Part shown: piece by piece, positions 12,727 to 33,552 of the stretch | Numbering within the stretch: the first letter of the stretch is position 1 | Layout of the letters: each line of letters starts with the position of its first letter | Assembly (NCBI GenBank): GCA_009839925.1 | Contig: VXOS01000066.1 | Span: 1 to 34,688 of the forward strand | DNA: 34,688 nt | Direction of reading: 5' to 3' | From: Chloroflexota bacterium | GTDB taxonomy: Bacteria > Chloroflexota > Dehalococcoidia > UBA2979 | Position numbers and translations under genes: made by a program | The notes under the pieces: generated by a model | Database searches by the model: none | Told to the model about the DNA's origin: nothing | What the model saw: the letters and a program-made list of their open reading frames with translations, nothing else

Positions 12727-12849
12727 CCGATCGCCCTCCCATGCCATCGCGTCCGGCGGGACGCCGCGAGCATGGCACAGACCGCACGGCCTGAGCGACC
12801 CGCCGCCCTCGCTGGCGTCGCGGGCACTGGCGCGAGAGCGCCGATCGGC

Positions 12850-12855
12850 TACCAT
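12850..12855 (+). promoter_or_regulatory. candidate -10 element for amidohydrolase
   Basis: TACCAT lies 54 nt before the ATG at 12910 in the 183-nt divergent gap. A clear -35 is not visible. The remainder of the gap is GC-rich with no other recognised element. Confidence 0.2.
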
Positions 12856-12909
12856 GCGGCGCGCCGCCCGGGGGCGGCCTGTCGAGACTTCATGAAAGGG
12901 GACGAAGCA

Positions 12910-13923: not shown

Positions 13924-13972
13924 GCGCGGGAGCGAGCGCGGCGGGCCGCCCTCGCGAGCCGGGGGCGGCCGC

Positions 13973-15196
13973 TCAGTCCGCCGCGGTCAGCGCCAGCCTG
14001 CCGCGAATCGAGGCGGCGAGCAGCGCGACGGTCGCGGCCAGCACGATCAGGCCCGCCGCCCAGAACACGGAGACGACGCCAAGCAGCGTCGCGACGACGC
14101 CGAGCGTGATCGCGCCGCTCAACCCGCCGAGGTCCCAGGCGAGCTGGAGCACAGCCGTCGCGCGCCCCTTCTCAGAAACCGGCACGCGGTCGACGGCGAG
14201 CGAGAGCAGGCTGGTGTGCGATGCGCCGAGGCCGAGCCCGACCAGCGCCGCGCCGAACCAGAGTATCGGCGGTGACTGCGCGACGGCGACGAGCCACATC
14301 CCGGAGCACGTGAGAAGCAGCCCGGGCACGGCCACCGGCACGCGCCCCAGCCGGTCCGAGACTCGCCCGGCAACGGGCCGGACCACGATCGCGCCCGCGC
14401 CGGAGACGAGGAAGAACAGCCCGACGTTGCCGAGCCCTCGGTCGTCGCCGTGCAGCGGCAGGAAGGCCGAGGCGGCGACGATCGAGAAGGTGACCGAGAG
14501 GAAGATCAGCATCGGGAAGATCGCGCGCCTCGCAATGAGCGCGGAGCCCTCGCCGCCCTGCGCCTCGCTGGCGGGCTCGTCGATCGGTTGGACCACCAGC
14601 AGCGTCACCAGCGAGGTGCCGCTCGCGATGACGAAGACCGCATCGAAGCCCCACAGCCCGGCGATCGCTACGCCCAGCGCAGGCGTGATCATCTGCGCGG
14701 AGCTCGTCGCCATCCCGAAGTAACCCAGGCCCTCGCCGCGCCGGGCGGGCGGAGCGAGCTCGGCGGCCAGCGACGCCGCGGCGGTGGGGAACAGCGCCAT
14801 GCCGACGCCCTGCGCGAGCCGCAGCACGAAGAGCGAGATCACGTCCTCCGACAGAACCATCAGCACCGTCGCGACGGCCATGGTCAGGATGCCGATGCGC
14901 TGCAGGCGCTTGCGGTGCCCCCGATCGCTCCAGCGGCCCACGAAGGGCCGCAGCACCAGCGGCACGAACCCGAAGCCGCCGACGATCACGCCGATCTGCC
15001 ACTTCTCCCCACCGATCGAGTCGATGTACTCGGGCAGCACGGAAAGCAGGTAGAAGAAGCTCCCGAAGAAGCCGACCGTGCCGAGGGCGTTGAGGGTGAA
15101 GTCGCGTGTCCAGAGCGAGGGTGTGGGGCCCGCCCCCCGCGCTCGCGGGTCCGGCGAGACGCCTGCTTCCGTGCGCGGTGCGCCGGGGTTCGTCAT
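13973..15196 (-). CDS. major facilitator superfamily transporter
   Basis: The 407-aa product has about twelve hydrophobic segments in two sixes, the MFS layout. The loop 2-3 signature is clear (RPFVGRWSDRGHRKRLQRIG), and the equivalent loop in the second half reads RPVAGRVSDRLGRVPV. SLAAELAPPARRGEGLGYFGMA and DRVPVSEKGRATAVLQLAWDLGG are typical of drug or metabolite exporters. The substrate is not predictable. ATG at 15196 gives a short cytoplasmic N-terminus before the first membrane segment (NALGTVGFFGSFFYLLSVLP); a GAAAGGTG lies upstream. It is divergent from the formate dehydrogenase operon. It could carry formate, but classical formate carriers are FocA/OxlT-like, so I would not assign that. 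Confidence 0.9.
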   Translation of the reverse strand: MTNPGAPRTEAGVSPDPRARGAGPTPSLWTRDFTLNALGTVGFFGSFFYLLSVLPEYIDSIGGEKWQIGVIVGGFGFVPLVLRPFVGRWSDRGHRKRLQRIGILTMAVATVLMVLSEDVISLFVLRLAQGVGMALFPTAAASLAAELAPPARRGEGLGYFGMATSSAQMITPALGVAIAGLWGFDAVFVIASGTSLVTLLVVQPIDEPASEAQGGEGSALIARRAIFPMLIFLSVTFSIVAASAFLPLHGDDRGLGNVGLFFLVSGAGAIVVRPVAGRVSDRLGRVPVAVPGLLLTCSGMWLVAVAQSPPILWFGAALVGLGLGASHTSLLSLAVDRVPVSEKGRATAVLQLAWDLGGLSGAITLGVVATLLGVVSVFWAAGLIVLAATVALLAASIRGRLALTAAD

Positions 15197-15224
15197 CGAC
15201 TCGGCGCACCTTTCGCCCGCGCTC

Positions 15225-15238
15225 GCGCCCGCGGGCGC
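15225..15238. promoter_or_regulatory. 14-bp perfect palindrome in divergent MFS/fdh gap
   Basis: GCGCCCGCGGGCGC is a perfect 14-bp palindrome in the 123-nt gap between the MFS gene and the formate dehydrogenase gene. It could be an operator for either. In such GC-rich DNA chance palindromes are frequent, so the call is tentative. Confidence 0.25.
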
Positions 15239-15285
15239 CGTGCGCATGATACCGCTGAGGGGCGGCATGGCCTCCCCCGGAGTCG

Positions 15286-15291
15286 TATCCT
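15286..15291 (+). promoter_or_regulatory. candidate -10 element for formate dehydrogenase operon
   Basis: TATCCT lies 28 nt before the ATG at 15320 within GTCGTATCCT, the same 10-mer found before murA. No convincing -35 or Rex operator was found nearby. Confidence 0.3.
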
Positions 15292-15319
15292 GAGCGGTCC
15301 GAGCGACCGGAGGGTTGCG

Positions 15320-17212
15320 ATGGGCCGCCGTTACACCCGCCTGACGCATCCACTCGTCCGCGAGGGCGGCGAGCTGCGCCGTGCCTCCTGGGACGAAGCG
15401 CTCGACCGCGCCGCCGAGGGCATCCGCCGCACGACTGAGGCGTACGGCCCCACGTCGTTTGGCCTGTTCAGCTGCTCGAAGGGCACGAACGAGCTGAACT
15501 ACGCCGCCCAGAAGCTCGCCCGCGCCGTAATCGGCAGCAACAACATCGACAGCTGCAATCGCACCTGACACGCGCCCAGCGTCGCCGGTCTGGCGATGGT
15601 GTTTGGCCTGGGAGGCGGAACCAGCTCCTACGAGGAGGCCGAGGACACCGAGCTGATCGTGCTCTGGGGATCGAACGCCCGGGAGACGCACCCGATCTAC
15701 TTCCACCACGTCCTCGCGGGCATCCGCAACGGCGCGCGGCTGATCGTCGTCGACCCGCGCCGGACGACTACCTCGGAGTGGGCGGACCTCTGGCTCGGCC
15801 TCGACGTCGGCTCGGACATCGCGCTCGCGAACGCCGTCGGGCGCGAGATCATCCACGCCGGCCTCGCGCACCGCGAGTTCATCGAGCGGGCGACCGAGCA
15901 CTTCGAGGCGTACCGCGAGTCCGTCGAGCCGTACACGCTGGAGCGGGCCGAGGCGATCTCGGGTGTGCCCGCCGAGGCGATCCGCGAGCTGGCGCACGCC
16001 TACGGCAGCGCCGGAACGGCGCAGCTCTGCTGGACGCTCGGCATCACCGAGCACCACAACGCGACGGACCACGTGCTGGCGCTGATCAACCTCGCGCTGC
16101 TCACCGGCCACGTCGGCCGCGAGGGCTCCGGCGTCAATCCGCTCCGAGGCCAGAACAACGTCCAGGGCGGCGGCGACATGGGCGCGGTGCCGACCCGCCT
16201 GCCCGGCTTCCAGGACGTCGAGGACGACGAGGCGCGCGCCCGCTTTGAGGAGGCGTGGGGCGCCGCGGTGCCGCCGCGCGACGGCTGGCACCTCACGCAG
16301 ATGTTCGAGGCGATGGAGCGCGGCGAGCTGCGCTCGCTCTACGTGATCGGCGAGAACCCCGCGCAGTCCGAGGCCGACGTGCAGCGCGCGCGGCGGCTGC
16401 TGGAGGGTCTCGATCACCTGGTCGTGCAGGACATCGTGCTGACGAAGACCGCCAAAATGGCCGACGTGGTGCTCCCGGCCGCCGCCGCCTGGGCGGAGAC
16501 CGAGGGCACCGTCACGAACAGCGAGCGCCGCGTGCAGCGCGTGCGCAAGGCGCTCGACCCACCCGGCGAGGCGCGCGACGACCTCGCCGCCGTCTTCGCG
16601 CTCGCCGAACGCCTCGGAGCGGACTGGGGCGCCCCGGACGCCGAGCAAGTCTGGGACGAGCTGCGCGGCCTCTCGCCGCTGCACGGCGGGATGAGCTACG
16701 CGCGCCTCGATGAGCTGGGCGGCATCCAGTGGCCCTGCGCCGACGAGCAGGACCCCGGATCGCTGTTCCTCCACGGGCGGCTCTGGCGCGAACCCCTTGA
16801 GGGCCCGCGCGTCCCCTTCCACCCCGTCGAGCACGTCCCTCCGGTCGATGAGCTGACCGAGGACTATCCGATCCGCCTGACTACGGGTCGCCGGCTCGAC
16901 TCCTACAACACGGGCGTGCAGAGCGCCGACTACGGATCGCCGCTGCGCCAGCCGGAGACGCTCGACATCTCGCCCGAGGACGGCGCGCGACTCGGCGTGG
17001 CGGACGGCGAGCGCGTGCGCGTCTGCTCGCGGCGCGGCGAGCTGGAGGCGCCGGTGCGCTACGCCGAAGAGCTTCGCCCCGGGCTCGCCTTCATGACGCT
17101 GCACTTCCCGGACGATGTCGACACCAACCGCCTGACGATCGAGGCGTGGGATCCGAAGTCCGGCACGTCGGAGTTCAAGGCCTCGGCGATTCGCATCGAG
17201 AAGATCGGCTGA
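15320..17212 (+). CDS. fdhA: formate dehydrogenase catalytic subunit, selenocysteine-containing, lacking N-terminal Fe-S lobe
   Basis: This 630-residue molybdenum/tungsten bis-MGD enzyme oxidises formate to CO2 (or the reverse). TGA at 15566-15568 is in frame and is read as selenocysteine 83, in NIDSCNRT-U-HAPSVAGLAMVF; E. coli FdhF has the same arrangement around its Sec140. After the TGA the frame stays open to 17212 with strong family similarity: GVNPLRGQNNVQGGGDMGA (conserved active-site Arg), QDIVLTKTAKMADVVLPAAA, EGTVTNSERRVQRV and the C-terminal cofactor domain beginning RLTTGRRLDSYNTG. The N-terminal CxxCxxxC iron-sulfur lobe of the family is missing; the protein begins just after where it would end and the lobe is encoded at 19050-19982. 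The ATG is preceded by CGGAGGG at 6 nt. An automatic annotation would break it at the TGA. Confidence 0.93.
15566..15598 (+). promoter_or_regulatory. bacterial SECIS element with UGA selenocysteine codon
   Basis: The UGA (15566-15568) is followed by exactly 11 nt and then a perfect 7-bp stem, CGUCGCC (15580-15586) with GGCGAUG (15592-15598, including one G-U pair), closing a GGUCU loop. In E. coli fdhF the SelB-binding mini-helix also starts 11 nt after UGA and displays a GGUCU-type loop. This would recruit SelB and Sec-tRNA. The selenocysteine genes (selA, selB, selC, selD) are not in the window. The bulged U of the E. coli element is not evident. Confidence 0.88.
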
Positions 17213-20811: not shown

Positions 20812-23800
20812 TCAGGGAATCGGCCGCAGTTCGGAAAGGGGCGATGGCAGCCGGATCACGATGTCAGTGACGTCGGCTTCGTCAACCTCGATCACGGTGA
20901 TGCTGCCGGTGGAGAAGCCCGTGGGCCCGCCGTACTGGCCATAGGTGACCCAGTCCCCGTCAAAGTACTCCATAAGCGTCAGGCGGTAGGATCCGTCTCT
21001 CGCAGCGAATCTGAATGTGCCGTCCGCCTCCGTGCGTGCGAACTCGATGTAGGCCCCCGTCGCCGAGTGCCACCGAAGCCACAGCCCGGCGCCCTCGACC
21101 GGCTCACCGTCGGGGCCGAGCACGACGCCGCGGACCTGGGGCAGTACCGGCGCGATATCCGCCTGGTGGACCTCGAAGTCCTCGTAGAAGTCGTCGACGG
21201 TGAGGCCGAACGCGCCCTCGAACGCCTCCCGCCAACTCGTACTGGAGGGGAGGAGGCGGAAGTACTCGAAAACCGCTTCGTCGCCGGCGAGTTCGGCGAG
21301 GCGTTCCACTGCGAGGAAGCTAAGCGCCCAGCCGCTCTGGTCCGCCTCGTTGGCCGCGTTCCAGCCCTCGGCTGTCTCGAGGCTGCGCGGGTCGGCAGGG
21401 TTCGCCTGCGCCGATTTAATCCGAGTGGCGCGCTCATCTCCGTAGTCTGCGATCCCAGCTGCGTCCCCGGAGAGCAGTTCGGCGTACAAGTAAGTCCCGC
21501 GGTCCAGCCACTGTGGGCCCCGGCGGCTGTAGCCATCGTCGGCTCCGGGGAGCTCGCTCCATGGGGCCAGCTTGTCGCGCGCGAGGATGAAGTAGAAGCC
21601 GCTGAGGTGTCGCGCCAGCGGGTCGTCGCAGGACGCCGCATAGACGAACGCGGGCCCGTGCCGACCGCTGCAGAAGTTCGTGTGCGGCGCGTCCTCGAAC
21701 AGCATCCAGTGAATCGGCTCCAGCGACTCGACGTCCGCGCCGACGAAGACGGTGGACTCCACGCTTTCGACTCCGAACCGCTCGGAGAACAGCGCCTCCA
21801 CCTTCCCGACCGCGGACTCGTGGGCAGCCTGGCCGCTTGAGTCGATGTCGCCGAGGAACACGACGACTGGGCCTTCGCGATCGTCTGCGAGATGCGGCAG
21901 CAGCGGCTCGATCTCAGGCCAGTAGTCCTCGAACGTCGTATAGAAATCGTCGACTGTGAGGTCGAACGCGCCCTCGAACGCCTCTTCCCAGTTCTCCGAT
22001 GAGGGCAGCCGCTGGTAGAAAACAGCGAGCGCCTCCACTCCGGCATGTCCGGCGAGCCAATCAGCGGCGATGAAGCCGAGGTGATAGTGGGAGCGCTCGT
22101 TGGGGTCATCGACGGTTTCGAGGTTGGAGAGCGTGGGAACATCGCCCTCGAGCATGACGCGCGCCAGCTCCCAGCGGCGCCTGAGCTCAAATCCTTCGCC
22201 TGTCGGCAGCCGTTGCCCTATGAGCGCGCGGTGCAGGGCCTCGCCATAGACGGCGACCCCCTCGGCCAGCCAGGCCGGGTCCCCGGAGGCCCCCTCCGCG
22301 AGTTCGTTCTGCAGGACGTGGACGTACTCGTGGGCGAGGACGAGCTCGGGGTTCTTGCAACTGATGATCTGGAAGATGGCTCCGTGGGCATAGTCTCCGC
22401 AGAGTGCCGGATCCTCGTATCCGCGAACCGCGAGGTAGACAGGCCTGATCGCTCTGAGGTCCGAACCGATGTAGACCGTGAAGGCGGACGCCCTGCCGTC
22501 GAACTGCGTTTCGAAGAGATCGCGCGTCGCGTTCAGCGAGACGCGTAACTCATCCTGCAGGTCCGCGGCGATGTCCCCGACGAACACGAAGACCGGCTCA
22601 TCGGGGGCATCGGCGAGTTGCGGGAGGTGACGGGCCGTGTCGGGGTGGTCGGCTCCGAAGGACAGACGGAAGTTGGTGACTGAAATCCCGAAGGCGCGCT
22701 CGAATGCGTCCTGCCAACTGGTGCTGGACGGGAGGAGCCGGTAGTACTCAAAGAACGCCCCATCGCCGGCGTGTCCGGCAAGCCACGTCGCGGCGACGAA
22801 CGCCAGCGCAGCGGTACCCGCTTGCCCCACCGGCTGCGACTCGTCACCGAACGTCTCGCGGTACGCTGCGTCCATGTAGGCATCCGTGCCGAGGAGCAGC
22901 CAGATCGGTCCATAGGGGGAATAGCCTGCCTCCGCCGCCGGCACTTGCGTCCGGGGTGCGATGTGCTGGGTCGCGGCGCCGAAGTATCTCTGTCCGATCC
23001 GCGACTCGGGCTCCCCATAGCAGGATGCGGAGTGATGCAGCTCGCTCCCAACCCTGTAGACACATCGCCCAGGAGCGAGATTGCGACCGTGACGTTCGTG
23101 GTACGCCACACCCAGGGATTCCTCGTCAGCGTAGACGTGGGCGGTGATCTCCGCGGTCTCAGGGATGCCGAAGCGCGCCGTGAACAGGCCGCGGGCCCGC
23201 TGGTAGGCAGTGGCGATCGCGAACGCCGTCTCCGAGTCCAGGTCGTCCGCGAACACGACCGGGGGCGCGGCCGCACCTTGCTGCCACCAGCGGGCCGTCT
23301 CGTTGACCTCGATCCGCAGCCCATCGCCCGGTGCGACGGCGTCCAACACGCTGGCGCTGCTCGCCCGGCCAGGATCGTGGGTCTCGTAGCGCTGGGCTTG
23401 CGGATTCCAGCGGCTTGCGCGCACCAGGTCGTCGCCAAGACGTGCGAGCCCATCCTCAAGGCTGTCCGGGCCGCCGAGCCAGGCCACGAGGTTGAAGCCT
23501 CGGTAGAGTTGGAGCAGCGCGCTCTCCGCCGCTCCCGGGCGCGTCCACTCGATGGTCTCGTTGCCGCCCACCAGGAACCAGAGGCCCATGCCGGGCGTCA
23601 GCAGCCTCAAGGCGCCGGTCGCCGAGCCGCCACTGCGACGGGCCCGCAAGTAGGCGCCGGCCCGGGCGTCTCGAGCCGACACCCGCTGGAGCGCCGGGAT
23701 CTCCCCGAAGAGGTCCGCGACGGGTGTCTCCGGCCCGACCCAGCCGATCAGGTTCCAGCCGGGGTGCAGTGTCGTGGTGATCGTCGCGGAGTCGTCCGCC

Positions 23801-23946
23801 GTGGACTCGTCCGCCGATTCGGCGGCCGCGGTCTCGCTGCCCGAGGCAAGCCCCGCGCCGATCGCGAGCGCGAGGGCCAGTGCGGCAAGCAACGAACGGC
23901 TGGCGAGGTTCTGAAGCACGACTCCCACCGGACACAAAGGCGTCAT
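20812..23946 (-). CDS. exported multi-repeat protein with one intact and two degenerate gluzincin-like peptidase repeats
   Basis: The 1044-aa protein starts with an apparent signal peptide (LASRSLLAALALALAIGAGLASG). Residues about 45-225 hold two related modules beginning GWNLIGWVG and GFNLVAWLG. Three repeats of about 230 residues follow, each ending in a version of FRLLPSSTSWREAFEGAFG. Only the middle repeat has the zinc motif HEYVH (539-543) with WLAEGVAVY (Glu562), the gluzincin pattern; the others read TQHIA and RDKLA at that place. A C-terminal beta-sandwich like the carboxypeptidase regulatory domain begins VRGVVLGPDGEPVEGAG. A secreted metallopeptidase or surface binding protein is inferred. 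Base composition is somewhat less GC-rich than neighbours. The ATG at 23946 lacks a strong ribosome binding site; in-frame GTG codons shortly downstream are alternatives. Confidence 0.85.
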   Translation of the reverse strand: MTPLCPVGVVLQNLASRSLLAALALALAIGAGLASGSETAAAESADESTADDSATITTTLHPGWNLIGWVGPETPVADLFGEIPALQRVSARDARAGAYLRARRSGGSATGALRLLTPGMGLWFLVGGNETIEWTRPGAAESALLQLYRGFNLVAWLGGPDSLEDGLARLGDDLVRASRWNPQAQRYETHDPGRASSASVLDAVAPGDGLRIEVNETARWWQQGAAAPPVVFADDLDSETAFAIATAYQRARGLFTARFGIPETAEITAHVYADEESLGVAYHERHGRNLAPGRCVYRVGSELHHSASCYGEPESRIGQRYFGAATQHIAPRTQVPAAEAGYSPYGPIWLLLGTDAYMDAAYRETFGDESQPVGQAGTAALAFVAATWLAGHAGDGAFFEYYRLLPSSTSWQDAFERAFGISVTNFRLSFGADHPDTARHLPQLADAPDEPVFVFVGDIAADLQDELRVSLNATRDLFETQFDGRASAFTVYIGSDLRAIRPVYLAVRGYEDPALCGDYAHGAIFQIISCKNPELVLAHEYVHVLQNELAEGASGDPAWLAEGVAVYGEALHRALIGQRLPTGEGFELRRRWELARVMLEGDVPTLSNLETVDDPNERSHYHLGFIAADWLAGHAGVEALAVFYQRLPSSENWEEAFEGAFDLTVDDFYTTFEDYWPEIEPLLPHLADDREGPVVVFLGDIDSSGQAAHESAVGKVEALFSERFGVESVESTVFVGADVESLEPIHWMLFEDAPHTNFCSGRHGPAFVYAASCDDPLARHLSGFYFILARDKLAPWSELPGADDGYSRRGPQWLDRGTYLYAELLSGDAAGIADYGDERATRIKSAQANPADPRSLETAEGWNAANEADQSGWALSFLAVERLAELAGDEAVFEYFRLLPSSTSWREAFEGAFGLTVDDFYEDFEVHQADIAPVLPQVRGVVLGPDGEPVEGAGLWLRWHSATGAYIEFARTEADGTFRFAARDGSYRLTLMEYFDGDWVTYGQYGGPTGFSTGSITVIEVDEADVTDIVIRLPSPLSELRPIP

Positions 23947-23995: not shown

Positions 23996-26506
23996 TCAGT
24001 GGGCGATGCCCTCGGCGACGAGCTGGGACAACTCCTCGGCGCTCACGCCGAGCAGGTCGCCGTAGACGTACTCGTTGTGCTGGCCGAGCGTCGGGGCGGC
24101 CTCCGTGGCGATGCGCGATCCATTGACGAGCCAGGGCAGGGCGATCACCTCGAGGTGGCCCATGCGCGGGTGCTCGACGCTGCTCCAGAGGCCGCGCGCG
24201 CGGACGTGCTGGTCCTCGTAGAGGTCGCGCGCGGTCGCGCTCGGCGCCGAGGGCACACCGAGGCCCTGCAGCTCCCCGACCAGCTCGTCGCGCTCGCGCT
24301 CGCGCGTCCAGTCGGCGATCGCCTCGTCGATGGTGTGCTCCTGCGCCTTGCGCGCGCGGGCGTCCCAGCGGGGGTCGAGCCGCCAGTCTCCGAGGTGCTC
24401 GGCGAGCCGCATCCACTGCTCGTCCGTCTCGACCGCGATCACGAGGTAGGCCTGCTCGCCCTCGATCGGCAGGCACTGGTAGACGTTGTGCGGGGCGAGC
24501 TGCTCGTGGCGGTTGCCGAGCGGCTCGGCGACGCAGCCGCGCAGCTGCCATTCGAGCAGCTGGTCGCCGACCAACGCGGCGCCCGCCTCCTGGGCCGCGA
24601 CGTCGACGTGGATGGCGCTGTCGCTGCGATCGCGGGCGTGCAGCCCGGCCAACGTAGCCATCGCGACGGCGGTGCCGACGCGCTGGTCGAGCGGGCCGCG
24701 GTACTCAGCGGGGACGCTGCGGTCGTAGCCGCTGAGGCCGGACAGCCCGGAGGTCGCGCCGAAGACGGCGGCGTAGCCGCTCATGTGCCCGTCCGGCGGC
24801 GTCCCGCCGTTGGCCGAGAGCGAGACCATGACCAGCCGCGGGTTGACCTCGATCAGCCGGTCGAAGCCGAGGCCGAGGCGGTCGATCGTGCCGGGGCGGA
24901 AGCCCTCGATCAGCACGTCGGCGTCGGCGACGAGCCCGCGCAGGAAGTCGCGCCCGCGCTCCTGCGAGATGTCCATCGCGACGCTGCGCTTGCCCATGTT
25001 GTCTTCGTTGAAGCGGTAGCCCTTGTCGATCCAGTCGTCCGTCTTGCGATCGGCGAGCGAGACGGACTGGTGACGTCGCGAGTGGCGGAACGGGTCGATC
25101 CGGCGGTGGCTCTCGATCTTCAGGATCTCCGCCCCGAAGGCGCAGAGGATCATGTTGGCGTAGGGCCCCGCCTGGTACCACGTCAGGTCCAGCACGCGCG
25201 TGCCGCGCAGCCAGTCGAGCGGGCGCTGCGAATCGGCGGTCGCGCGAATCGAGGGCGCGGTGCTCATCGCGGGCGCGTCGGGCAGGTCGCGCAGCGCCTC
25301 CTCGTTGTGCTGGCCCGCCGAGGGCGTCGCGGCCGCCTCGGCGCCGTTTGCGGGGCCGGGCCGCCAGGCGGGGCCGCGCGCCTCGCGCACGATGTAGGGC
25401 TGGGCGGGGATCTCGGCGGTCGTGCCGTCCGCGAGGGCTACCGTCTGGAGGAACTCGCGCAGGCGCATCTGCTCGCAGGTCAGGAGATCGCCCATCAGCC
25501 GCACCGGGCCGCCGGGCACGTCGAAGTCGCGAAGCGCGTCGAAGATCTCGTGGCGGGTGCGCTCGCGCAGCCAGGGCTCGAAGAGCTGGTTCAGCTCCTC
25601 GGTATGCGCGATCCGGTGGTCGGCGGTCTCGCCGAGTTCGGTCGCCCAGGGCGGGTTGCCGGCAGCCTCGACGAGCCGCTCCCACATGTGCTGCTGCGCG
25701 GGCAGCACCTCGGCCCAGCCGTCCTTGCACTCGACCAGGCCGAGCACGGCGACCTCGCGCAGCGCGCGCGTGTCGAGGTAGCGGTCGTTCGGCCACTTCA
25801 CGATGTCCTGGCGGCAGAGTGACATCGCCGCCTCCTGCCACGAGAGATCGAGGTGCGTCGGCTCGCGCTCGGCGTCCGGCCAGCCCGCCAGCCAGCCGAG
25901 CATCCCGACCACCGCCGCCGAGCCCGCATCAAGCTCGGCGATGCTCGCGGGCACGCGCAGGGGCGGGCCGTCGGGGTAGCGGTCGTAGCCGATGCCGCCG
26001 TGGAAGAAGTAGGCCTCGCCGCCGGCGTGGTGCGCCGTCAGGTGCGTCGCGGCCCACTCCGCGCGCGGGCCGAAGCGCCCGAACGGCGTGATCGAGACGG
26101 CCAGCGCGCAGCGCCCGCTGCCCGGCAGCGCCTCGAAGTCGACGCCGAGTTCCTGCCAGTGCGAGCCGCGGTGCGAGTCGACCAGCACGTCGCAGTCGGC
26201 GATCAGCCGCAGCAGCGTCTCCCTGCCCTGGGCGGTCGTGTCGTCGAGGGTGACGCTGCGCTTGCCGGCGCTGGTGTAGGCGAACAGCGCCGAGGCGTCG
26301 CCGCCGTCCGGCGTGTAGCCCTCGCGGCGCAGCGGGCTGCCGCCGGGCGGTTCGATCTTCGTGACGGTCGCGCCGAGGTCGCCGAGCATGCGGGCGGCGA
26401 AGGCGGAGGCCGCGCTCTCGCCGTACTCAAGCACGCGCAGCCCGCCGAGCAGTGCGGGCGCGGGGACGAGCGCTTCGCCCGGCTGGCCGTTGCGCTGCGC
26501 GCTCAC
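23996..26506 (-). CDS. tandem-fused class III CoA-transferase (CaiB-CaiB), N-half with Asp-to-Glu change
   Basis: At 836 aa this is a second double CaiB/BaiF protein. The N-half starts LLGGLRVLEYGESAASAFAARMLGDLGATVTKIEPPGG. The C-half starts near residue 410 with RGTRVLDLTWYQAGPYANMILCAFGAEILKIES. At the nucleophile position the C-half has Asp (GPLDQRVGTAVAMA) but the N-half reads SIAELDAGSAAVVG, placing Glu where formyl-CoA transferase has Asp169. The fused protein may thus have one catalytic and one structural or altered half. The GTG start overlaps the stop of the upstream CaiB gene by 4 nt (GTGA). It is the last gene of a four-gene reverse operon starting at 30323. Confidence 0.9.
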   Translation of the reverse strand: MSAQRNGQPGEALVPAPALLGGLRVLEYGESAASAFAARMLGDLGATVTKIEPPGGSPLRREGYTPDGGDASALFAYTSAGKRSVTLDDTTAQGRETLLRLIADCDVLVDSHRGSHWQELGVDFEALPGSGRCALAVSITPFGRFGPRAEWAATHLTAHHAGGEAYFFHGGIGYDRYPDGPPLRVPASIAELDAGSAAVVGMLGWLAGWPDAEREPTHLDLSWQEAAMSLCRQDIVKWPNDRYLDTRALREVAVLGLVECKDGWAEVLPAQQHMWERLVEAAGNPPWATELGETADHRIAHTEELNQLFEPWLRERTRHEIFDALRDFDVPGGPVRLMGDLLTCEQMRLREFLQTVALADGTTAEIPAQPYIVREARGPAWRPGPANGAEAAATPSAGQHNEEALRDLPDAPAMSTAPSIRATADSQRPLDWLRGTRVLDLTWYQAGPYANMILCAFGAEILKIESHRRIDPFRHSRRHQSVSLADRKTDDWIDKGYRFNEDNMGKRSVAMDISQERGRDFLRGLVADADVLIEGFRPGTIDRLGLGFDRLIEVNPRLVMVSLSANGGTPPDGHMSGYAAVFGATSGLSGLSGYDRSVPAEYRGPLDQRVGTAVAMATLAGLHARDRSDSAIHVDVAAQEAGAALVGDQLLEWQLRGCVAEPLGNRHEQLAPHNVYQCLPIEGEQAYLVIAVETDEQWMRLAEHLGDWRLDPRWDARARKAQEHTIDEAIADWTRERERDELVGELQGLGVPSAPSATARDLYEDQHVRARGLWSSVEHPRMGHLEVIALPWLVNGSRIATEAAPTLGQHNEYVYGDLLGVSAEELSQLVAEGIAH

Positions 26507-27744
26507 CGCAGCACCCCGGCCTCGTCGAGCGCCTCGATCTCCTCATCGCTCATGTCGAGCAGCTCGCGCAGCACCTCCGCGCTGTGCTGGCCGAGCATCG
26601 GCGCGGGCTCACGCACGTAGCCGGGCGTCTCGCTGAGCCGGATCGCCTGCCCGTAGACGGGTTCGCGTCCGAGCACGGGGTTCTCGACCCAGGTGAAGCC
26701 CTCGCGCGCCAGCAGGTGGTCGTCGAAGAGCCGCTCGCTGACGGCGAGGCAGGGCGCGGCGATCACGCCGTGGCCCTGCAACAGCTCGGCCAGCTCGTCG
26801 CGGTCGCGCGGAGCGGTCCAGGCGCGCACGTGCTCGTTCAGCTCCTCGCGGGCCGCGAGGCGGCCCTCGGCGCTGGCGAAGCGCTCGTCCGCGGCCCAGT
26901 CCGGGTGCGCCATCGCCTCCACGATGCCTGCCCAGTCGGCGTCGTCGTGGACCTCGAGGACCAGCCAGTGGTCGTCGCCGGCGCAGGCGAAGACGCCGGC
27001 GGGGGCGCCCGGTATCGCGTCGTCGCCGAGCGGGCCGGCGACGCGGCCGTTCAGCTCGCAGTCGAGCAGCGGCGTCGCGAGCGCCGCGACCATCGCCTCC
27101 CACATCGAGACGTCGATGTAGGCGCCCTCGCCGGTGAGGCGGCGGCGTTCGAGAGCGCTCAGGGCGAGCAGCGCGGAGTGCAGCCCCACGTTGGGGTCCG
27201 CGTAGGCATGGCCCATCCCGAGCGGCGCCTCGCCCTGGTAGCCGACGAGGCTGTCGAGGCCGGTGATGCCGCCGACGGTGGGGCCGTAGGCGCGCAGCCG
27301 GGCGTCGATCCCGTCCTGGCCGGCGAGCGTCTGCGAGATCATGATGATGTCCGGCCGCAGCTTGCGCAGTTCCTCGTAGCCGAAGCCGAGCCGGGGCAGC
27401 GCCCCGGGCCGCCAGTTCTCGATCAGGATGTCGGCGTGCGGCACGATCCGGCGCAGCACGTCGCGGCCCTCCTCGGTCTTGAGGTTGAGCGCGAGGCTGC
27501 GCTTGTTGCGCGAGGTGTTGTGGAAGAGCGGGTTCTGGTTCGGGTCGTACTCCGTCCCGATGATCGGCCGCCCGCGGCGCGCGATGTCGAGGTTCGAGCG
27601 CGACTCGACCTTGACCACGTCCGCCCCGAAGTCGGACAGCACCTGCCCGCAGATCGAGCCGGCCCAGACCATGCCCAGGTCGAGCACGCGGACGCCCTCG
27701 AGGATGTCGGGCGTGGCGGGGCGCTCGCCGTTAGATGACGTCAT
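26503..27744 (-). CDS. class III CoA-transferase (CaiB/BaiF family)
   Basis: The 413-aa product is a normal-length family III CoA-transferase. It begins LEGVRVLDLGMVWAGSICGQVLSDFGADVVKVESRS and contains NKRSLALNLKTEEGRDVLRR, ADILIENWRPGALPRLGFGY and GEGAYIDVSMWEAMVAAL. The expected nucleophile is the Asp of HAYADPNVGLHSA. Its start overlaps the end of the upstream CaiB gene by 14 nt and its stop overlaps the fused CaiB-CaiB start, so translation is likely coupled. With its Asp-lacking upstream neighbour it could form a two-subunit transferase. The substrate is unknown. Confidence 0.92.
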   Translation of the reverse strand: MTSSNGERPATPDILEGVRVLDLGMVWAGSICGQVLSDFGADVVKVESRSNLDIARRGRPIIGTEYDPNQNPLFHNTSRNKRSLALNLKTEEGRDVLRRIVPHADILIENWRPGALPRLGFGYEELRKLRPDIIMISQTLAGQDGIDARLRAYGPTVGGITGLDSLVGYQGEAPLGMGHAYADPNVGLHSALLALSALERRRLTGEGAYIDVSMWEAMVAALATPLLDCELNGRVAGPLGDDAIPGAPAGVFACAGDDHWLVLEVHDDADWAGIVEAMAHPDWAADERFASAEGRLAAREELNEHVRAWTAPRDRDELAELLQGHGVIAAPCLAVSERLFDDHLLAREGFTWVENPVLGREPVYGQAIRLSETPGYVREPAPMLGQHSAEVLRELLDMSDEEIEALDEAGVLR

Positions 27745-29011
27745 CGCCTCGCAGCCTTTCGATCTCGGCAGCGTCGAGGCCGAGCAGGTCGCCGTAGACC
27801 TCGTCGTTGTGCTCGCCGAGGCGGGGGGCGCGCAGCAAGGCGGCGCCGGTCGGGTCGGTCTCGGGCGGGGCGTCGTCCTCGGCGTTGCGCCAGCGGAAGG
27901 GAGAGCCGGCGGCAGTGAACTGCTCGCCGTTGGGGTGCGCGAGCTCGCGGAAGAGGCCGAGGTGCAACAGCTGCTCCTCCTCCAGCACCTCGTGCATCTG
28001 GCGCACGGGCGAGAAGGGCAGTTGCCGCTCGCGCGTCTGCTCGAACAGCTCGTTCTTGGTGTGCTGCATCAGGTAGCTCTCGATGTAGGTGTCGAGCAGG
28101 TCCGCGTACCTGTCGCCGTTGACGATGCGGTCCTGGTACTCCGGGTCGTCGCCCCAGGCGGGGCTGCCCATCATCTCGAGCAGGCCGCGCCACTCCTTCT
28201 GCGACATCGCGTGGACGCGGAAGAAGCCGTCCTTGCAGCGCAGCATCGCGTTCGGATAGAGGCCGCCCTGGCTGCGCCGGCCGTGGCGCTGGAACTGGCG
28301 GCTGTCGAACACCCAGTGCGTCGCCGCCAGCCCCGTGTGCACCGAGGAGAGCACGTCCACGATCGAGATGTCGGCGACCTGCCCGCGGCCGGGCTGTCCG
28401 CCCCGCCCGAGCACCGTGTACAGGGTGGCGATCGCGACCGCGAGGCCGCCCTGCGTCAGCGCGAGGTCCTGCGGCGGCGGGATCGGCGCGCGGTCCGCCT
28501 CGCCGAAGTAGAGCGTGAGCCCTCCGTAGGCGCTGATCGTCGCCGGGCTGCCGCGCCAGTGGGCGCGCGGCCCGGTCAGGCCGAACGGCGTGATCGAGAC
28601 CACGCTGAGGGCGCGCTCACCGCCGCCGTGCTCCTCGCAGAGCGCGAGCAGCTCGTCGTGGCTCGCGCCGAAGCGCTCGTCGACGATCAGCACGTCGCTC
28701 TCGTCGAGCAGTTGGCCCAGCAGGTCGCGTCCCCGCGGTTGCGTCCAGTCGAGGGTGACCGAGCGCTTGCCGCGATTGAAGTAGCTGAACAGCCCGCTCG
28801 CCTCGGGGTCCGGCTCGTCGTCGCGGAAGGGGCCGGTATGCCTCGAGGAGTCGCCGCTGCCGGGCCGCTCGACCTTGGTGACCGCCGCGCCGAGGTCGTG
28901 CAGCAGGCGCCCGGCGAAGGGGCCCGGCACGTCCTCCGCGATCTCGAGGATGCGCAGGTGCGAGAGGGGCCCCGCGACCGTCGGCTGCAACGCCGCGTGC
29001 GCTTCGGTCAC
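27731..29011 (-). CDS. class III CoA-transferase homologue lacking the catalytic Asp
   Basis: The 426-aa product is CaiB/BaiF-like: LSHLRILEIAEDVPGPFAGRLLHDLGAAVTKVERPG, FNRGKRSVTLDWTQPRGRDLL, SITPFGLTGPRAHWRG and LGEHNDEVYGDLLGL. At the nucleophile site it reads DLALTQGGLAVAIA, where the catalytic Asp would be Leu or Ala by alignment. It is therefore probably a non-catalytic partner. The GTG at 29011 has GGAGG at a good distance and is chosen although the frame is open further upstream into the dehydratase gene. It lies 13 nt behind that gene and overlaps the next CaiB by 14 nt. Confidence 0.88.
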   Translation of the reverse strand: MTEAHAALQPTVAGPLSHLRILEIAEDVPGPFAGRLLHDLGAAVTKVERPGSGDSSRHTGPFRDDEPDPEASGLFSYFNRGKRSVTLDWTQPRGRDLLGQLLDESDVLIVDERFGASHDELLALCEEHGGGERALSVVSITPFGLTGPRAHWRGSPATISAYGGLTLYFGEADRAPIPPPQDLALTQGGLAVAIATLYTVLGRGGQPGRGQVADISIVDVLSSVHTGLAATHWVFDSRQFQRHGRRSQGGLYPNAMLRCKDGFFRVHAMSQKEWRGLLEMMGSPAWGDDPEYQDRIVNGDRYADLLDTYIESYLMQHTKNELFEQTRERQLPFSPVRQMHEVLEEEQLLHLGLFRELAHPNGEQFTAAGSPFRWRNAEDDAPPETDPTGAALLRAPRLGEHNDEVYGDLLGLDAAEIERLRGDDVI

Positions 29012-29024
29012 CGGCTGCCTCCGG

Positions 29025-30323
29025 TTACTGGTCCGGGACGCCGACGTGCTTGTAGTCGTGCGCCTGCGGACCCGGCTCGACGGGTGGCAGGCCGAGCGGC
29101 TCGAGCACCGTCTCCGGACCCCACGTCGGGTACGCCGGCTGGCCGCTTGCCGGCAGCTTCGGCATCCCGCCCTCGCGCGAGGGCAGCACGACGATCGCCT
29201 GGCCGGGCGCGGTGATCTCGCCGATCTGGTTCGTCGCCCAGAAATCGCAGACAACCTGGTGCTCGCCGTCCTCGACGCGCTTGTCGATGACGCGGCCCTG
29301 GTAGGTCTGGAGGTCGCCGATGATGCCGAACCTGCGGATCTGGACCCAGAGGCGCTTCAGCCACGCGTCGTCGCCCATCCAGTTGGTCATGAAGCTGGCG
29401 CTCCAGGCGATGCGCTGCGCGCCGTAGTCGTAGGCCGCCGGGACGCCGACCTCGCGCGCGAAGTCGTCCTCCCAGTGCACGCGCTCGACGATGTCCCAGA
29501 CGCGCTGCTTGTCGCGGGCGTAGGCGCCGAAGTGGCGCTGGCGGAACTCGTAGTCGGAGCGGCCGGTGCGCGCGTAGGGACCGCCCGCGCCGGTCTCCCA
29601 GGAGACGGCGTCGGTGATGCGGAAGGGCCCGCGCACCATCTCGCCCATCTCGTCGCCGACGTTCACGTCCTCCCAGTAGCGAGGTTCCGCGCCGCGCGGG
29701 ATCTCGTTCGCGTAGGCCTCGTCGATGCGGGCGAGCTCCTCGTCGGACCAGACAGTCGGCTCGCGGAAGACGCTCTTGCGCCGGGCGGCGGTGTTGCGCT
29801 CGGTGCGGAAGCGCCAGTGCACGGCCTTGCAGACCACCTCGTGGTTCTGGTTGCGGTAGAGGGTTTCCATGTGCTGGAGCACCTGGCGTCCGGCGAACTG
29901 ACCCTGCTTGAGGGAGAAGCCCGCCTCGTACTGGACGCGGTAGATGCGGTCGCCCTCGACCATCGGTTGGTACCACTCCCAGTCGTGGCCGGAGTACATG
30001 CCGTGGACGCCGGGGAGGCCGCCGCCGCGCCCGGACTCGCGCTCGGCGGCCGTCAGGTCGCGGCCCTCCTGGATCCCGGTCCCGAGGAGGATGCAGGGGG
30101 GCGCGACGATCGTGCCCCAGCTTGAGTTCCGGGCGTACTCCTCGTTCGTGTAGAGGGGGTTGGTGTCGCCCGCGCCGAGCGAGAAGCCGCGCACGGCGTC
30201 GGCGTTGATCTGCGTGTACTTCTGGCGGTCGCCGCGCATCGCGGGGATGCCTCGCCGTGCGCGCAGGCCGGCCAGGCCCTCATCGGTGATCTTGGGAAAC
30301 TGCCGTTCCTCGGTGCTCGTCAT
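29025..30323 (-). CDS. FAS1-like/MaoC-type double hot-dog acyl-CoA dehydratase
   Basis: The 432-aa protein looks like a fusion of an N-terminal FAS1-like dehydratase hot-dog domain and a C-terminal MaoC-type hot-dog domain. The first contains FSLGAGDTNPLYTNEEYARNSSWGTIVAPP, close to the MaoC pattern GDxNPxH but with Tyr instead of His. The second runs from about residue 225 (YWEDVNVGDEMGEMVRGPF) through GAYARDKQRVWD to FWATNQIGEITAPGQAIVVLP. Such proteins hydrate or dehydrate 2-enoyl-CoA thioesters. It is first in an operon with three CoA-transferase genes, so it probably acts on the CoA esters they make. ATG at 30323 has AAAGGGG upstream. The substrate is not predictable. Confidence 0.82.
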   Translation of the reverse strand: MTSTEERQFPKITDEGLAGLRARRGIPAMRGDRQKYTQINADAVRGFSLGAGDTNPLYTNEEYARNSSWGTIVAPPCILLGTGIQEGRDLTAAERESGRGGGLPGVHGMYSGHDWEWYQPMVEGDRIYRVQYEAGFSLKQGQFAGRQVLQHMETLYRNQNHEVVCKAVHWRFRTERNTAARRKSVFREPTVWSDEELARIDEAYANEIPRGAEPRYWEDVNVGDEMGEMVRGPFRITDAVSWETGAGGPYARTGRSDYEFRQRHFGAYARDKQRVWDIVERVHWEDDFAREVGVPAAYDYGAQRIAWSASFMTNWMGDDAWLKRLWVQIRRFGIIGDLQTYQGRVIDKRVEDGEHQVVCDFWATNQIGEITAPGQAIVVLPSREGGMPKLPASGQPAYPTWGPETVLEPLGLPPVEPGPQAHDYKHVGVPDQ

Positions 30324-30373
30324 TGCTGCTGGGGTCCCCTTTCGGCGAGCGCGCGCCTCGCGCGCCACGATGG

Positions 30374-31050: not shown

Positions 31051-32166
31051 CTAGTCCGGGAAGGTGATCGCGGGCTTGATCTCCTCCCAGCGCTGCATCC
31101 CGATCATCGCCTCGTTGATCCGCTCCAGCGGGTAGTGGTTGGAGATCATCTCCATCCAGTCGAAGCGGTCGCGGTGGCGGCGCACGAACTCCAGCGCGCG
31201 GTGGTAGTGCTGCACCGCCGCCGAGGACGTCCCGATGATGTGCGCGTGCTTGCGCACGATGTCCGAGGGCGCGAACGGGAACGTCTCGCCGTGCAGCTGG
31301 CCGATCACCAGGTAGCGCCCACCGCGCCGCAGCATCTCGAAGCCCTCGGGGAAGGCGCTCTTCGCGCCGGAGACCTCGATCACCACGTCCGCGCCGAGCC
31401 CGTCCGTCCACTCCATCACCTGCGCGTGGCGCTCGGCCGGGTCGGGAACGTCGTCGATGTCGAGCGTGTGGCCCGCGCCCCACTTGCGCGCGAGCTCGAG
31501 GCGCCGCGCCGGCCCGCCGATCACGATCGGGTCGGGCGGTCCACCCGTGACGACGCGGGCGAGGGTGAAGAGGCCGAGCGGGCCGGAGCCCTGGATGACG
31601 ACGCGATGGCGGTCGTCCAGATCGCCGACCCGGTCGAGGCCGTGGATCACCGTGCGCAGCGCGCAGGAGACGGCGGCGGCGACCTCGTCCGGCACGTCGT
31701 CCGGCACGCGCACGCAGCCCGAGGTGGGGAAGACGTAGCCGTACTCGGCGAAGCCGCCGGTGAGGTAGGGGAACTCCTCGGTCGAGCCGTGCCAGCGGCG
31801 GCGGTTGAGGCAGAGCGTGCGCTCGTGCTCCACGATGCAGTTGAGGCAGCTCCCGCAGAAGCCGTGCGTCCAGACGATGCGGTCGCCCTCGCGCAGCGGC
31901 GTGCCGATCGAGTCGTGGGTGCGGCCCTCGCTGCGCGCGATGCGCCCCGTCATCTCGTGGCCGAGGATGCTCGGGAACTCGTCCTCGGCGAAGGAGGAGG
32001 AGCCCTCCCAGGCGTGCACGTCGGTCGCGCAGATCGAGGCCATCGACATCTTGACGAGGATGCCGCCGGGCTCCAGCTTCTGCGGCACGCGCACATCGAT
32101 CAGCTCCATCGGCTTGCCCGCGCCGACCATCGCGGCCGCCTTGCAGGTGGTCGGGATCTCTGCCAT
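31051..32166 (-). CDS. zinc-containing medium-chain alcohol dehydrogenase
   Basis: The 371-aa enzyme is a Zn-dependent MDR dehydrogenase oxidising an alcohol with NAD(P). Catalytic zinc ligands are visible in SICATDVHAWEG (Cys) and LGHEMTG (His-Glu). The structural zinc loop FCGSCLNCIVEHERTLC has four cysteines. The cofactor motif is VIQGSGPLGLFTLA followed by VIGGPARRLELARKWGAG. It is closest in style to the threonine dehydrogenase/sorbitol dehydrogenase branch, but the substrate is unknown. It is third in a reverse operon after an SDR and a SnoaL-like gene; its ATG shares one base with the preceding stop (TGATG). Confidence 0.92.
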   Translation of the reverse strand: MAEIPTTCKAAAMVGAGKPMELIDVRVPQKLEPGGILVKMSMASICATDVHAWEGSSSFAEDEFPSILGHEMTGRIARSEGRTHDSIGTPLREGDRIVWTHGFCGSCLNCIVEHERTLCLNRRRWHGSTEEFPYLTGGFAEYGYVFPTSGCVRVPDDVPDEVAAAVSCALRTVIHGLDRVGDLDDRHRVVIQGSGPLGLFTLARVVTGGPPDPIVIGGPARRLELARKWGAGHTLDIDDVPDPAERHAQVMEWTDGLGADVVIEVSGAKSAFPEGFEMLRRGGRYLVIGQLHGETFPFAPSDIVRKHAHIIGTSSAAVQHYHRALEFVRRHRDRFDWMEMISNHYPLERINEAMIGMQRWEEIKPAITFPD

Positions 32167-32756
32167 CAGGCGCTCCCCTCCTTCGTTGCTGCCTCCGGGT
32201 TGTAACCGCGATCGTGGCCGATCTCGGTGTCGACGACCATCTTGCTGATCCGCCAACCATCATCGAGGCGCACGAACGTGAACGTGTAGGTGCCCTCGTG
32301 GACGTGGCGCTCGAAGCCGTCCGCGCTCGCGACGCTGCGCACGAGCGTGAAGTAGGAAGTGAGCCAGCCCGTGTCGCCGTCGTCGGAAAGCCGGATCAGC
32401 GGCGCGGCGAACATATGCCGGACGGTCGTCCGGCGCCCGCGCCGGTAGCGCGAGGCCTCGCCGAGCGACTTCCCGTCGCGCGTCGGCAGCACGGGGTTGC
32501 GATACAGCTCGCGCAGCGTGTCCTTGCCCCGCACGCGCTCGTCGAGGGTGCCCGTGAGCACGCGCTCCACGTCGTCGGTGTAAAGCGCGAGCACGCCCTC
32601 CGTATCGCGCGCGTCGGAGAAGTGGCCGTAGCGCATCATCAGGTCGTGGATTGCCTCCTTCGCCTCGAGGCGCGCGACGCGCTCCTCGAGGCTGGCGGGC
32701 TCGCGCTCGACCATGCGGATCACGTCGTCGCGGAGGATGTCGGTTTCGCTGGTCAT
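32166..32756 (-). CDS. SnoaL-like (NTF2-fold) protein
   Basis: The 196-aa product matches the SnoaL_4/NTF2-like fold: helix SLEERVARLEAKEAIHDLMMRYGHFSDARDTEGVLALYTDDVE, strand GTLDERVRGKDTLRELY, then strands TVRHMFAAPLIRLSDDGDTGWLTSYFTLVRS, YTFTFVRLDDGWRISKMVVD. Proteins of this fold include small hydroxylases, dehydratases and isomerases as well as binding proteins. Co-transcription with an SDR and a zinc dehydrogenase suggests an auxiliary catabolic enzyme for a cyclic substrate, but this is inference. GGAGGGGCGGGG lies before the ATG, 19 nt behind the SDR stop. Confidence 0.83.
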   Translation of the reverse strand: MTSETDILRDDVIRMVEREPASLEERVARLEAKEAIHDLMMRYGHFSDARDTEGVLALYTDDVERVLTGTLDERVRGKDTLRELYRNPVLPTRDGKSLGEASRYRRGRRTTVRHMFAAPLIRLSDDGDTGWLTSYFTLVRSVASADGFERHVHEGTYTFTFVRLDDGWRISKMVVDTEIGHDRGYNPEAATKEGSA

Positions 32757-32775
32757 CGCTGCCCCGCCCCTCCGC

Positions 32776-33528
32776 TCAACGGTTCACTCCGCCGTCGACG
32801 TTCACGGTCTGCCCCGTGATGAACGAGGCCTGATCGGAGGCGAGGTAGGTGATGGCGTCCGCCAACTCCTCGGGCAGGCCGACGCGCCCGAGCGGGTTGA
32901 GCCGCCCGAAGCCCTCGATCTCCTCGGGCGTGCGGTTGCGGCGCATCAGCGGCGTCAGCACCGGTCCCGGCGCGACGCAGTTCACGCGGATGTTCTGGGC
33001 GGCGTGGTCGAGGGCCATGCCCTTGGTCAGCGCGATCACCCCGCCCTTGGCTGCGACGTAGCCGGGGTTGAGCGGCTGCCCGGACACGCCCGAGCCGGAC
33101 GAGACGTTGACGATCGCCCCGCCGCCCGCATCGGCGATGTGCGGCAGCGCGTACTTCGACATCAGGAAGACGCTTGTCAGGTTCATCTCGAGCAGGTCGC
33201 GCCACTCCTCCTCCGGCAGGTCGACGACGCTGAACTGTGGCAGGCTGCCGCCGACCACGTTGGCGAGGATGTCCAGCCGCCCGAACGCCGCGACGGTCTC
33301 GGCGACGATCCGCTCGGCATCGGCGGCGACCGTCACGTCGCCCTCGCTGGCGATCGCCGTGCCGCCCTGCTCCTCGATCGTCTGTACCGTCGCGGCGGCG
33401 GCGTCCGGGTCGATGTCGGCGACGGCTACGCCGGCGCCATCGGCGGCGAAGCGCAGGCAGACCGCCTGCGCGATCCCGGAGCCGCCGCCGGTGACCAGCG
33501 CTGCCTTGCCCTCGAGCCGAGCCGTCAT
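32776..33528 (-). CDS. short-chain dehydrogenase/reductase
   Basis: The 250-aa protein is a classical SDR oxidoreductase. The cofactor motif is ALVTGGGSGIAQAV (the last Gly of TGxxxGxG is Ala), with an Asp in VAVADID that favours NAD. ANVVGG replaces the usual NNAG segment. The catalytic residues lie in IVNVSSGSGVSG and NPGYVAAKGG, and the end is FITGQTVNVDGG. It is the first gene of a reverse operon with SnoaL-like and zinc dehydrogenase genes. ATG at 33528 has GGAGG at 5 nt, which decides against a GTG two codons upstream. Confidence 0.93.
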   Translation of the reverse strand: MTARLEGKAALVTGGGSGIAQAVCLRFAADGAGVAVADIDPDAAAATVQTIEEQGGTAIASEGDVTVAADAERIVAETVAAFGRLDILANVVGGSLPQFSVVDLPEEEWRDLLEMNLTSVFLMSKYALPHIADAGGGAIVNVSSGSGVSGQPLNPGYVAAKGGVIALTKGMALDHAAQNIRVNCVAPGPVLTPLMRRNRTPEEIEGFGRLNPLGRVGLPEELADAITYLASDQASFITGQTVNVDGGVNR

Positions 33529-33552
33529 CGCCACCTCCGGGCCGCGAGCGGC

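Follow-up and report, generated by a model that had tools for sequence, protein, structure and literature searches.

Genes of the operon

The window analysed here is the whole of contig VXOS01000066.1 (34,688 nucleotides; C19 in this analysis) from a Chloroflexota bacterium, the assembly of which (GCA_009839925.1) amounts to 2.86 Mb and is 95% complete. An operon on its reverse strand (23996–30368) encodes, in order of transcription, a MaoC-like protein, two single-domain CaiB proteins, called protein E and protein F below, and a fusion of two CaiB domains. This account concerns the four class III coenzyme A (CoA) transferase domains of the operon and the way in which they are paired.

The first gene (29025–30368) encodes a MaoC-like (hot-dog) protein of the hydratase/dehydratase type (PF13452, FAS1_DH_region, E-value 1.9e-15), and 13 bases separate it from the start of the gene for protein E (27731–29011; 426 residues from a GTG start). 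The latter overlaps the gene for protein F (26503–27744; 413 residues) by 14 bases, and this in turn overlaps the start of the fusion gene (23996–26506; 836 residues, GTG start, TGA stop) by 4 bases. The fusion comprises an N-half CaiB domain (25340–26449) and a C-half CaiB domain (24074–25210). The reading frames of the operon agree with the guanine and cytosine content by codon position. The nearest named record among those returned is Chloroflexi bacterium SB0661_bin_43, with 94% identity across the fused protein.

All four CaiB domains match PF02515 with 206 to 324 bits against a cut-off of 23.3, and the predicted structure of the fusion (predicted template modelling score 0.86, mean predicted local distance difference test score 77.2) matches class III structures by Foldseek and VIA. 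Family match and fold thus place the window domains in the class III (CaiB/BaiF) superfamily. The structure prediction used an alignment of 11 fused rows only, as single-domain rows had been aligned to the C-half in a mixed alignment. The three CaiB proteins all score below every NCBIfam cut-off, and so no substrate can be named; for the formyl-CoA transferase equivalog oxalate_frc (TIGR03253, cut-off 504.2 bits), the scores are 251.3 for the fusion, 208 for protein F, and 135.1 for protein E.

The catalytic aspartate in the four domains

The column of the catalytic aspartate (Asp) was anchored on the Asp of Escherichia coli YfdW, in an alignment with SUGCT, 4ed9, and both chains of the benzylsuccinate CoA-transferase BbsEF. 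The four operon domains have Leu (protein E), Asp (protein F), Glu (fusion N-half), and Asp (fusion C-half) in this column. The residues are Leu185 in the motif LALTQGG (codon 28457–28459, CTG), Asp183 in YADPNVG (codon 27196–27198, GAC), Glu191 in IAELDAG (codon 25934–25936, GAG), and Asp607 in PLDQRVG (codon 24686–24688, GAC). The glycine four residues past the Asp position is kept in all four motifs, which puts Asp193 of IAELDAG two residues out of register. A second alignment of 180 rows gave the identical Asp or not-Asp call in every row.

The original prediction had named these four motifs, called the first and third Asp-less and the other two Asp-bearing, and pointed to two-subunit enzymes such as benzylsuccinate CoA-transferase, with a single catalytic subunit. 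All four motifs are found in frame in the expected genes, alignment to YfdW and the BbsEF chains leaves no Asp in the column at Leu185 and Glu191, and Asp183 and Asp607 fall in the catalytic column. The precedent, BbsEF, has D178 in one chain and Tyr in the other: residue 178 of 9fn0_B stands in the Asp column, where 9fn0_A has the Tyr, and the title of PDB entry 9fol refers to a "D178-CoA adduct" of BbsEF. In our reading, chains A and B of 9fn0 are BbsE and BbsF, respectively; both are labelled "subunit of benzylsuccinate CoA-transferase" in the records. Among PDB sequences, the Tyr chain, 9fn0_A, is the top match for each of the two Asp-less domains (E-value 1.3e-32 for protein E), and the D178 chain, 9fn0_B, is the top match for protein F (E-value 3.8e-67). 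The whole fusion matches 9fn0_B best through its C-half, and its N-half alone matches 9fn0_A.

Pairing across the genome

The genome has 120 CaiB matches, of which 109 are near full length and were scored, the other 11 being too short for the main alignment. Asp is present in 77 scored domains; the 32 without it have Glu (8), Ser (5), Leu (4), Gly (3), Thr (3), Ala (2), Trp (2), and one each of Gln, His, Phe, Tyr, and Pro. Runs were defined as CaiB domains on the same strand with gaps of at most 300 bases. Among the isolated two-domain runs with both domains scored (n = 33; one run each of six, four, and three domains left out), 25 are mixed (one Asp-less and one Asp-bearing domain), 8 are Asp/Asp, and none is Asp-less/Asp-less. 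Scored singletons have Asp in 26 of 28 cases, while 30 of the 81 scored domains in runs are Asp-less (Fisher p 0.003), and at least 25 mixed runs arose in 37 of 100,000 label shuffles, with both tests ignoring the relatedness among paralogues. The Asp-less state is not chance: Asp is the rule among the scored domains (77 of 109), and 30 of the 32 exceptions belong to same-strand CaiB runs. The two Asp-less singletons (on C47 and C94) each share a contig with an Asp domain on the opposite strand, and in the tree the rows closest to that domain include mates of those closest to the singleton itself.

The fused isolated pairs (n = 20) have the Asp-less half first in 12 cases and second in 3, with 5 Asp/Asp; for the separate isolated pairs the counts are 4, 6, and 3, respectively. 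Five of the 11 short matches have Asp, one has Glu, one has Ser, and four lack the column; counting them, C27 and C70 would give mixed pairs and C87 and C188 Asp/Asp pairs. By a first look, the genome has 125 CaiB candidates, and the next counts among those listed from a 201-genome sample (the genome itself and its phylum) are 55, 53, and 44, with no further genome of the same family listed in this sample. In a sample of relatives, a genome of the same genus (G201) has 132 and one of the same family (G208) has 100.

Pairing in other genomes and loci

In G210 and G212, two other members of the same class, all 19 isolated pairs have the Asp-less domain first and the Asp domain second. The solo domains of these genomes have Asp in 17 of 19 cases; of the two exceptions, L156 has a truncated neighbour and L125 has none. 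Left out of the pair count was a five-domain run in G212 (L142; contig C249, 6442–12631), which contains one domain in two pieces and two adjoining Asp-less domains (Tyr and Trp). A scan of named genomes found one or more mixed pairs, either adjacent or fused, at 27 of 31 loci, a set that is biased because the query is itself a mixed fusion; the domains of L117 are about 2 kb apart, and L105, L111, and L121 have no such pair. With the same query, the 25 loci of relatives comprise the window itself, 17 loci with mixed pairs, 5 with Asp/Asp pairs, and 2 without a scorable pair (L180 and L181). Six plasmid loci, hand-picked from more than 1,100 records (Neorhizobium, Variovorax, two Rhodococcus, and two Cupriavidus), are all mixed, one in reverse order. 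The four annotated plasmid records call their fused or paired relatives "CoA transferase", and two (L184 and L188) are unannotated. In three Chloroflexi-type records (L094, L100, and L120), two mixed CaiB pairs adjoin divergently, so two pairs in one place recur.

Two further loci of the genome resemble the operon. The fusion on contig C182 is 63% identical to that of the window, and a MaoC-like protein that is 66% identical to the window's precedes it. On contig C83 (L043, about 9993–15826), a fusion, a partner subunit, and a catalytic subunit stand in an order unlike that of the window. The separate subunits there are the nearest in the tree to proteins E and F, and the catalytic half of the fusion also lies near its counterpart in the window; the partner half of the fusion, which is matched as two pieces, has Ser at the Asp column. 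In the C83 cluster, an Asp-bearing CaiB domain precedes and a flavin amine-oxidase-like gene follows. Cupriavidus pinatubonensis has a MaoC-type gene, a CaiB pair, and a CoA ester lyase grouped together.

Phylogeny of partners and mates

A FastTree tree of 180 domains was built with the Asp column removed and L091 left out. On this tree, the state of the column changes 7 times, compared with a minimum of 42 over 300 shuffles. A partner clade of 61 domains (support 99) holds 53 Asp-less domains, including 9fn0_A, and 8 Asp-bearing ones; both Asp-less operon domains fall in it. A quick IQ-TREE run (LG+G4) on the genome and the references recovered the partner clade exactly (31 rows, Shimodaira–Hasegawa-like approximate likelihood ratio test (SH-aLRT) 99), with 8 changes. 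By sequence, the operon pairs are of the BbsEF type, each with one Asp-bearing subunit and one without, the latter in the clade of the Tyr chain.

Ten Asp-less domains, all from this genome, lie outside the main partner clade, which has 53 of the 63. They form one separate clade in the FastTree tree; in the quick IQ-TREE tree, five form a clade (SH-aLRT 99) and five lie outside it. The idea of a single loss behind all Asp-less domains was accordingly not borne out, and the presence of Asp was rejected as a label of catalytic subunits, given the eight Asp-bearing domains inside the partner clade. The genome has 30 domains in the main partner clade, 10 outlying Asp-less domains, and 69 others. 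Distances among partners correlate with those among their mates (Mantel r 0.835 for 44 pairs, with 0 of 5,000 permutations as high), and common descent of whole pairs is a sufficient explanation for this.

The window contains two further CaiB genes. A second fused CoA-transferase (about 10240–12705, reverse strand) has an N-half that belongs to the partner clade and has otherwise partner-type motif residues but bears Asp, and a C-half of the catalytic type with Asp. As its halves are partner type and catalytic type by phylogeny with Asp in both, Asp alone does not mark the catalytic role. The other gene (8996–10279, forward strand) encodes an unpaired solo CaiB protein with Asp, and its tree row is the nearest to YfdW.

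Reciprocal motifs in partners and mates

Motif residues carry the numbering of the YfdW chain used. All 53 Asp-less partners of the main clade share Gly44 and Arg48 (motif ExPxGDxxR..GPF), and 2 of them have Asn246. Among the 50 mates of such partners, Gly44 occurs in 1, Arg48 in 31, Asp in all 50, Asn246 in 45, and His or Tyr254 in 39, whereas solo domains have Asp in 37 of 37, Gly44 in 27, and Asn246 in 9. The 19 pairs of G210 and G212 follow the same pattern, with Gly44 in 15 of 19 partners vs. 4 of 19 mates and Asn246 in 1 vs. 16; the four partners without Gly44 have no residues at that position. By their motifs, the subunits are reciprocally specialised: Asp-less partners keep PxGDxxR, which their mates lack, and the mates keep the Asp and the GN...APHxVY loop. 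In the window fusion, the partner-type N-half keeps the Pro, Gly, and Arg of PxGDxxR, and the catalytic-type C-half has GNxH and the APHNVY loop in addition to its Asp607.

Proposed working of the pairs

From these observations, the operon would encode two BbsEF-type class III CoA-transferases, both heteromeric, one split and one fused, with one working site each; we give this reading a probability of about 0.8. In class III dimers, each pocket lies between the large domain of one subunit and the small domain of the other, as described in passages of PMC3720670 and PMC9196870. Each partner and its catalytic mate would form such an interlocked dimer, in which the covalent aspartate intermediate would arise only on the Asp of the catalytic subunit. 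The partner would be unable to perform this chemistry, but its small domain would close the working pocket and should help to set substrate choice. The reciprocal pocket, between the large domain of the partner and the small domain of the catalytic subunit, would have lost its Asp and kept other conserved residues, either as a structural element or as a site that binds without turnover. We infer the heteromer, the single working site, and the role of the partner's small domain from this arrangement: the pocket with Asp would be closed by the partner and the reciprocal pocket is without Asp, which leaves one working site per pair.

The original prediction of two catalytic/non-catalytic pairs, one separate and one fused, agrees with the PDB matches, the tree, and the pairing across the genome. 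One part that needs amendment is the Asp-less half, which is probably no bystander, as it would supply half of the Asp-bearing pocket by the published geometry. The MaoC-like gene that precedes the CaiB genes here and on C182, together with the Cupriavidus grouping, suggests the activation of an acid to its CoA thioester, followed by hydration; the class of substrate is a guess.

Several observations weigh against this reading. The 8 Asp-bearing domains of the partner clade are the first members of the genome's 8 Asp/Asp pairs, and Asp/Asp pairs also stand at 5 of the 25 relatives' loci (L161, L162, L164, L165, and L182). The ten outlying Asp-less domains lack the reciprocal loss, and their mates have Gly44 in 9 of 10 cases. 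In the window, protein F is without Asn246 and His254, and the fused C-half has Gly at Asn98. Model confidence falls below 50 at residues 593–597 and 601–604, beside Asp607. Against the C182 paralogue, the ratio of nonsynonymous to synonymous substitution rates (dN/dS) is 0.588 for the N-half and 0.774, thus higher, for the Asp-bearing C-half. The GN...APH loop of the catalytic subunit is conserved although by published geometry it is turned towards the pocket without Asp; were that pocket simply dead, this conservation would have no explanation. The loop is also rarer in solo enzymes (Asn246). Finally, all three close copies of the fusion examined (the window's own, L091/L160, and C182) retain the Glu of the N-half, which might still act.

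Alternative explanations

The conserved loop bears on the idea that the Asp-less pocket is a kept second ligand site, so that the enzymes would be asymmetric, with one site for catalysis and another for regulation or for holding the donor. By the published geometry, the motifs that would line the Asp-less pocket (PxGDxxR...GPF in the large domain of the partner and GN...APHxVY in the small domain of the catalytic subunit) are kept and their counterparts at the Asp pocket are lost. The genome has 40 partner-type domains, and such partners would then be of more than one origin (the main clade and one or two further lineages). We regard this as a tentative and rather doubtful extension.

It is also conceivable, if unlikely, that all four domains assemble into a single mixed complex of the separate pair with the fusion, instead of making two independent enzymes. 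The overlap of the operon genes is consistent with this, as is the recurrence on C83, in another order, of a fusion and a separate pair that are the nearest tree neighbours of those in the operon. Chains A, B, C, and D occur across the 9fn0 and 9fol entries, so BbsEF may itself be a tetramer. However, the C182 fusion follows its MaoC-like gene with no further CaiB match listed on that contig, and 20 of the genome's fused pairs form isolated runs of two domains.

Still less probable is that Glu191 of the fusion N-half is a working nucleophile and that the fusion has two active sites. Glu serves as the nucleophile in class I CoA-transferases, and in addition to its retention in the three close fusion copies, it is the commonest residue at this position in Asp-less main-clade partners (12 of 53). 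However, the same position in the clade is also occupied by Tyr, Leu, Ser, Gly, Gln, Ala, Trp, Phe, His, Thr, and Pro, and as Asn246 is present in 2 of the 53, at most 2 of the 12 domains with Glu can have it. The Asp169-to-Glu mutant of formyl-CoA transferase is reportedly inactive. This mutant has been crystallised (1vgr, by its title).

The absent nucleophile suggests that the Asp-less domains are remnants in decay or without function, but this is very improbable in view of the invariant Gly44 and Arg48 of main-clade partners, the occurrence of such pairs in records named as several phyla, and the dN/dS against L091 of 0.225 for the fusion N-half and 0.190 for the C-half (0.552 for the linker), similar values that indicate no clearly weaker constraint on the Asp-less half.

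Neighbouring genes

Upstream of the operon, the reverse strand (31051–33534) encodes a zinc alcohol dehydrogenase, a SnoaL-like protein, and a short-chain dehydrogenase; about 680 bases separate the first of them from the MaoC-like gene. Downstream, the gene for a protein of 1044 residues (20812–23946, reverse strand) starts about 50 bases from the operon; by eye, this protein has a signal peptide and repeated segments, and its carboxypeptidase-regulatory-like match is below the cut-off.

Significance of the pairing

The main interest lies in the scale and the reciprocity of the pairing, as the heteromeric kind itself is known. The many CaiB copies of the SAR202 group are read in passages of PMC5395668 as an indication of cells that handle many different acyl compounds. 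If paired copies are half-site heteromers, there would be fewer enzymes than CaiB genes or domains, and annotating them as "CoA transferase" would conceal which subunit bears the chemistry. The reciprocal motif loss could serve, within the main clade, as a simple sequence-based criterion that separates solo, catalytic, and partner subunits. It also raises the question of why a pocket without a nucleophile seems to keep its other residues.

Comparison with known systems

The expansion of CaiB in SAR202 is already published (PMC5395668), and CaiB paralogues are described as numerous in SAR202 and in sponge Chloroflexi (passages of PMC5395668 and PMC6306507). The passages on CaiB in these two papers make no mention of pairing, Asp-less partners, or heteromers, and no description of CaiB pairing or reciprocal motif loss was found among the papers listed from the open PMC library, in searches several of which were directed at other subjects (DddD, Smt, SUGCT). 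Fused two-domain CaiB forms are already annotated as single genes in public records. The window fusion has its two-domain layout in common with DddD, a likeness of architecture and not of compared sequence. DddD, the dimethylsulfoniopropionate CoA-transferase/lyase, has two CaiB domains in one chain, and Asp602 in its C-half is reportedly the catalytic residue. A passage of PMC5395668 reports SAR202 proteins for which DddD is the top Swiss-Prot hit.

The homodimeric class III enzymes Frc, YfdW, and YfdE have the fold, the Asp column, and the interlocked dimer with inter-subunit pockets in common with the window enzymes but differ from the window pairs in having a single kind of subunit, which bears Asp. 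Heteromeric class III transferases are already known from BbsEF, the succinyl-CoA:(R)-benzylsuccinate CoA-transferase (PDB 9fn0, 9fol, and 9fun). Like the window pairs, BbsEF has two different CaiB subunits, one of them Asp-bearing; the window enzymes differ from it in sequence, with about 30% identity in structural alignment, and in that one of the two is fused.

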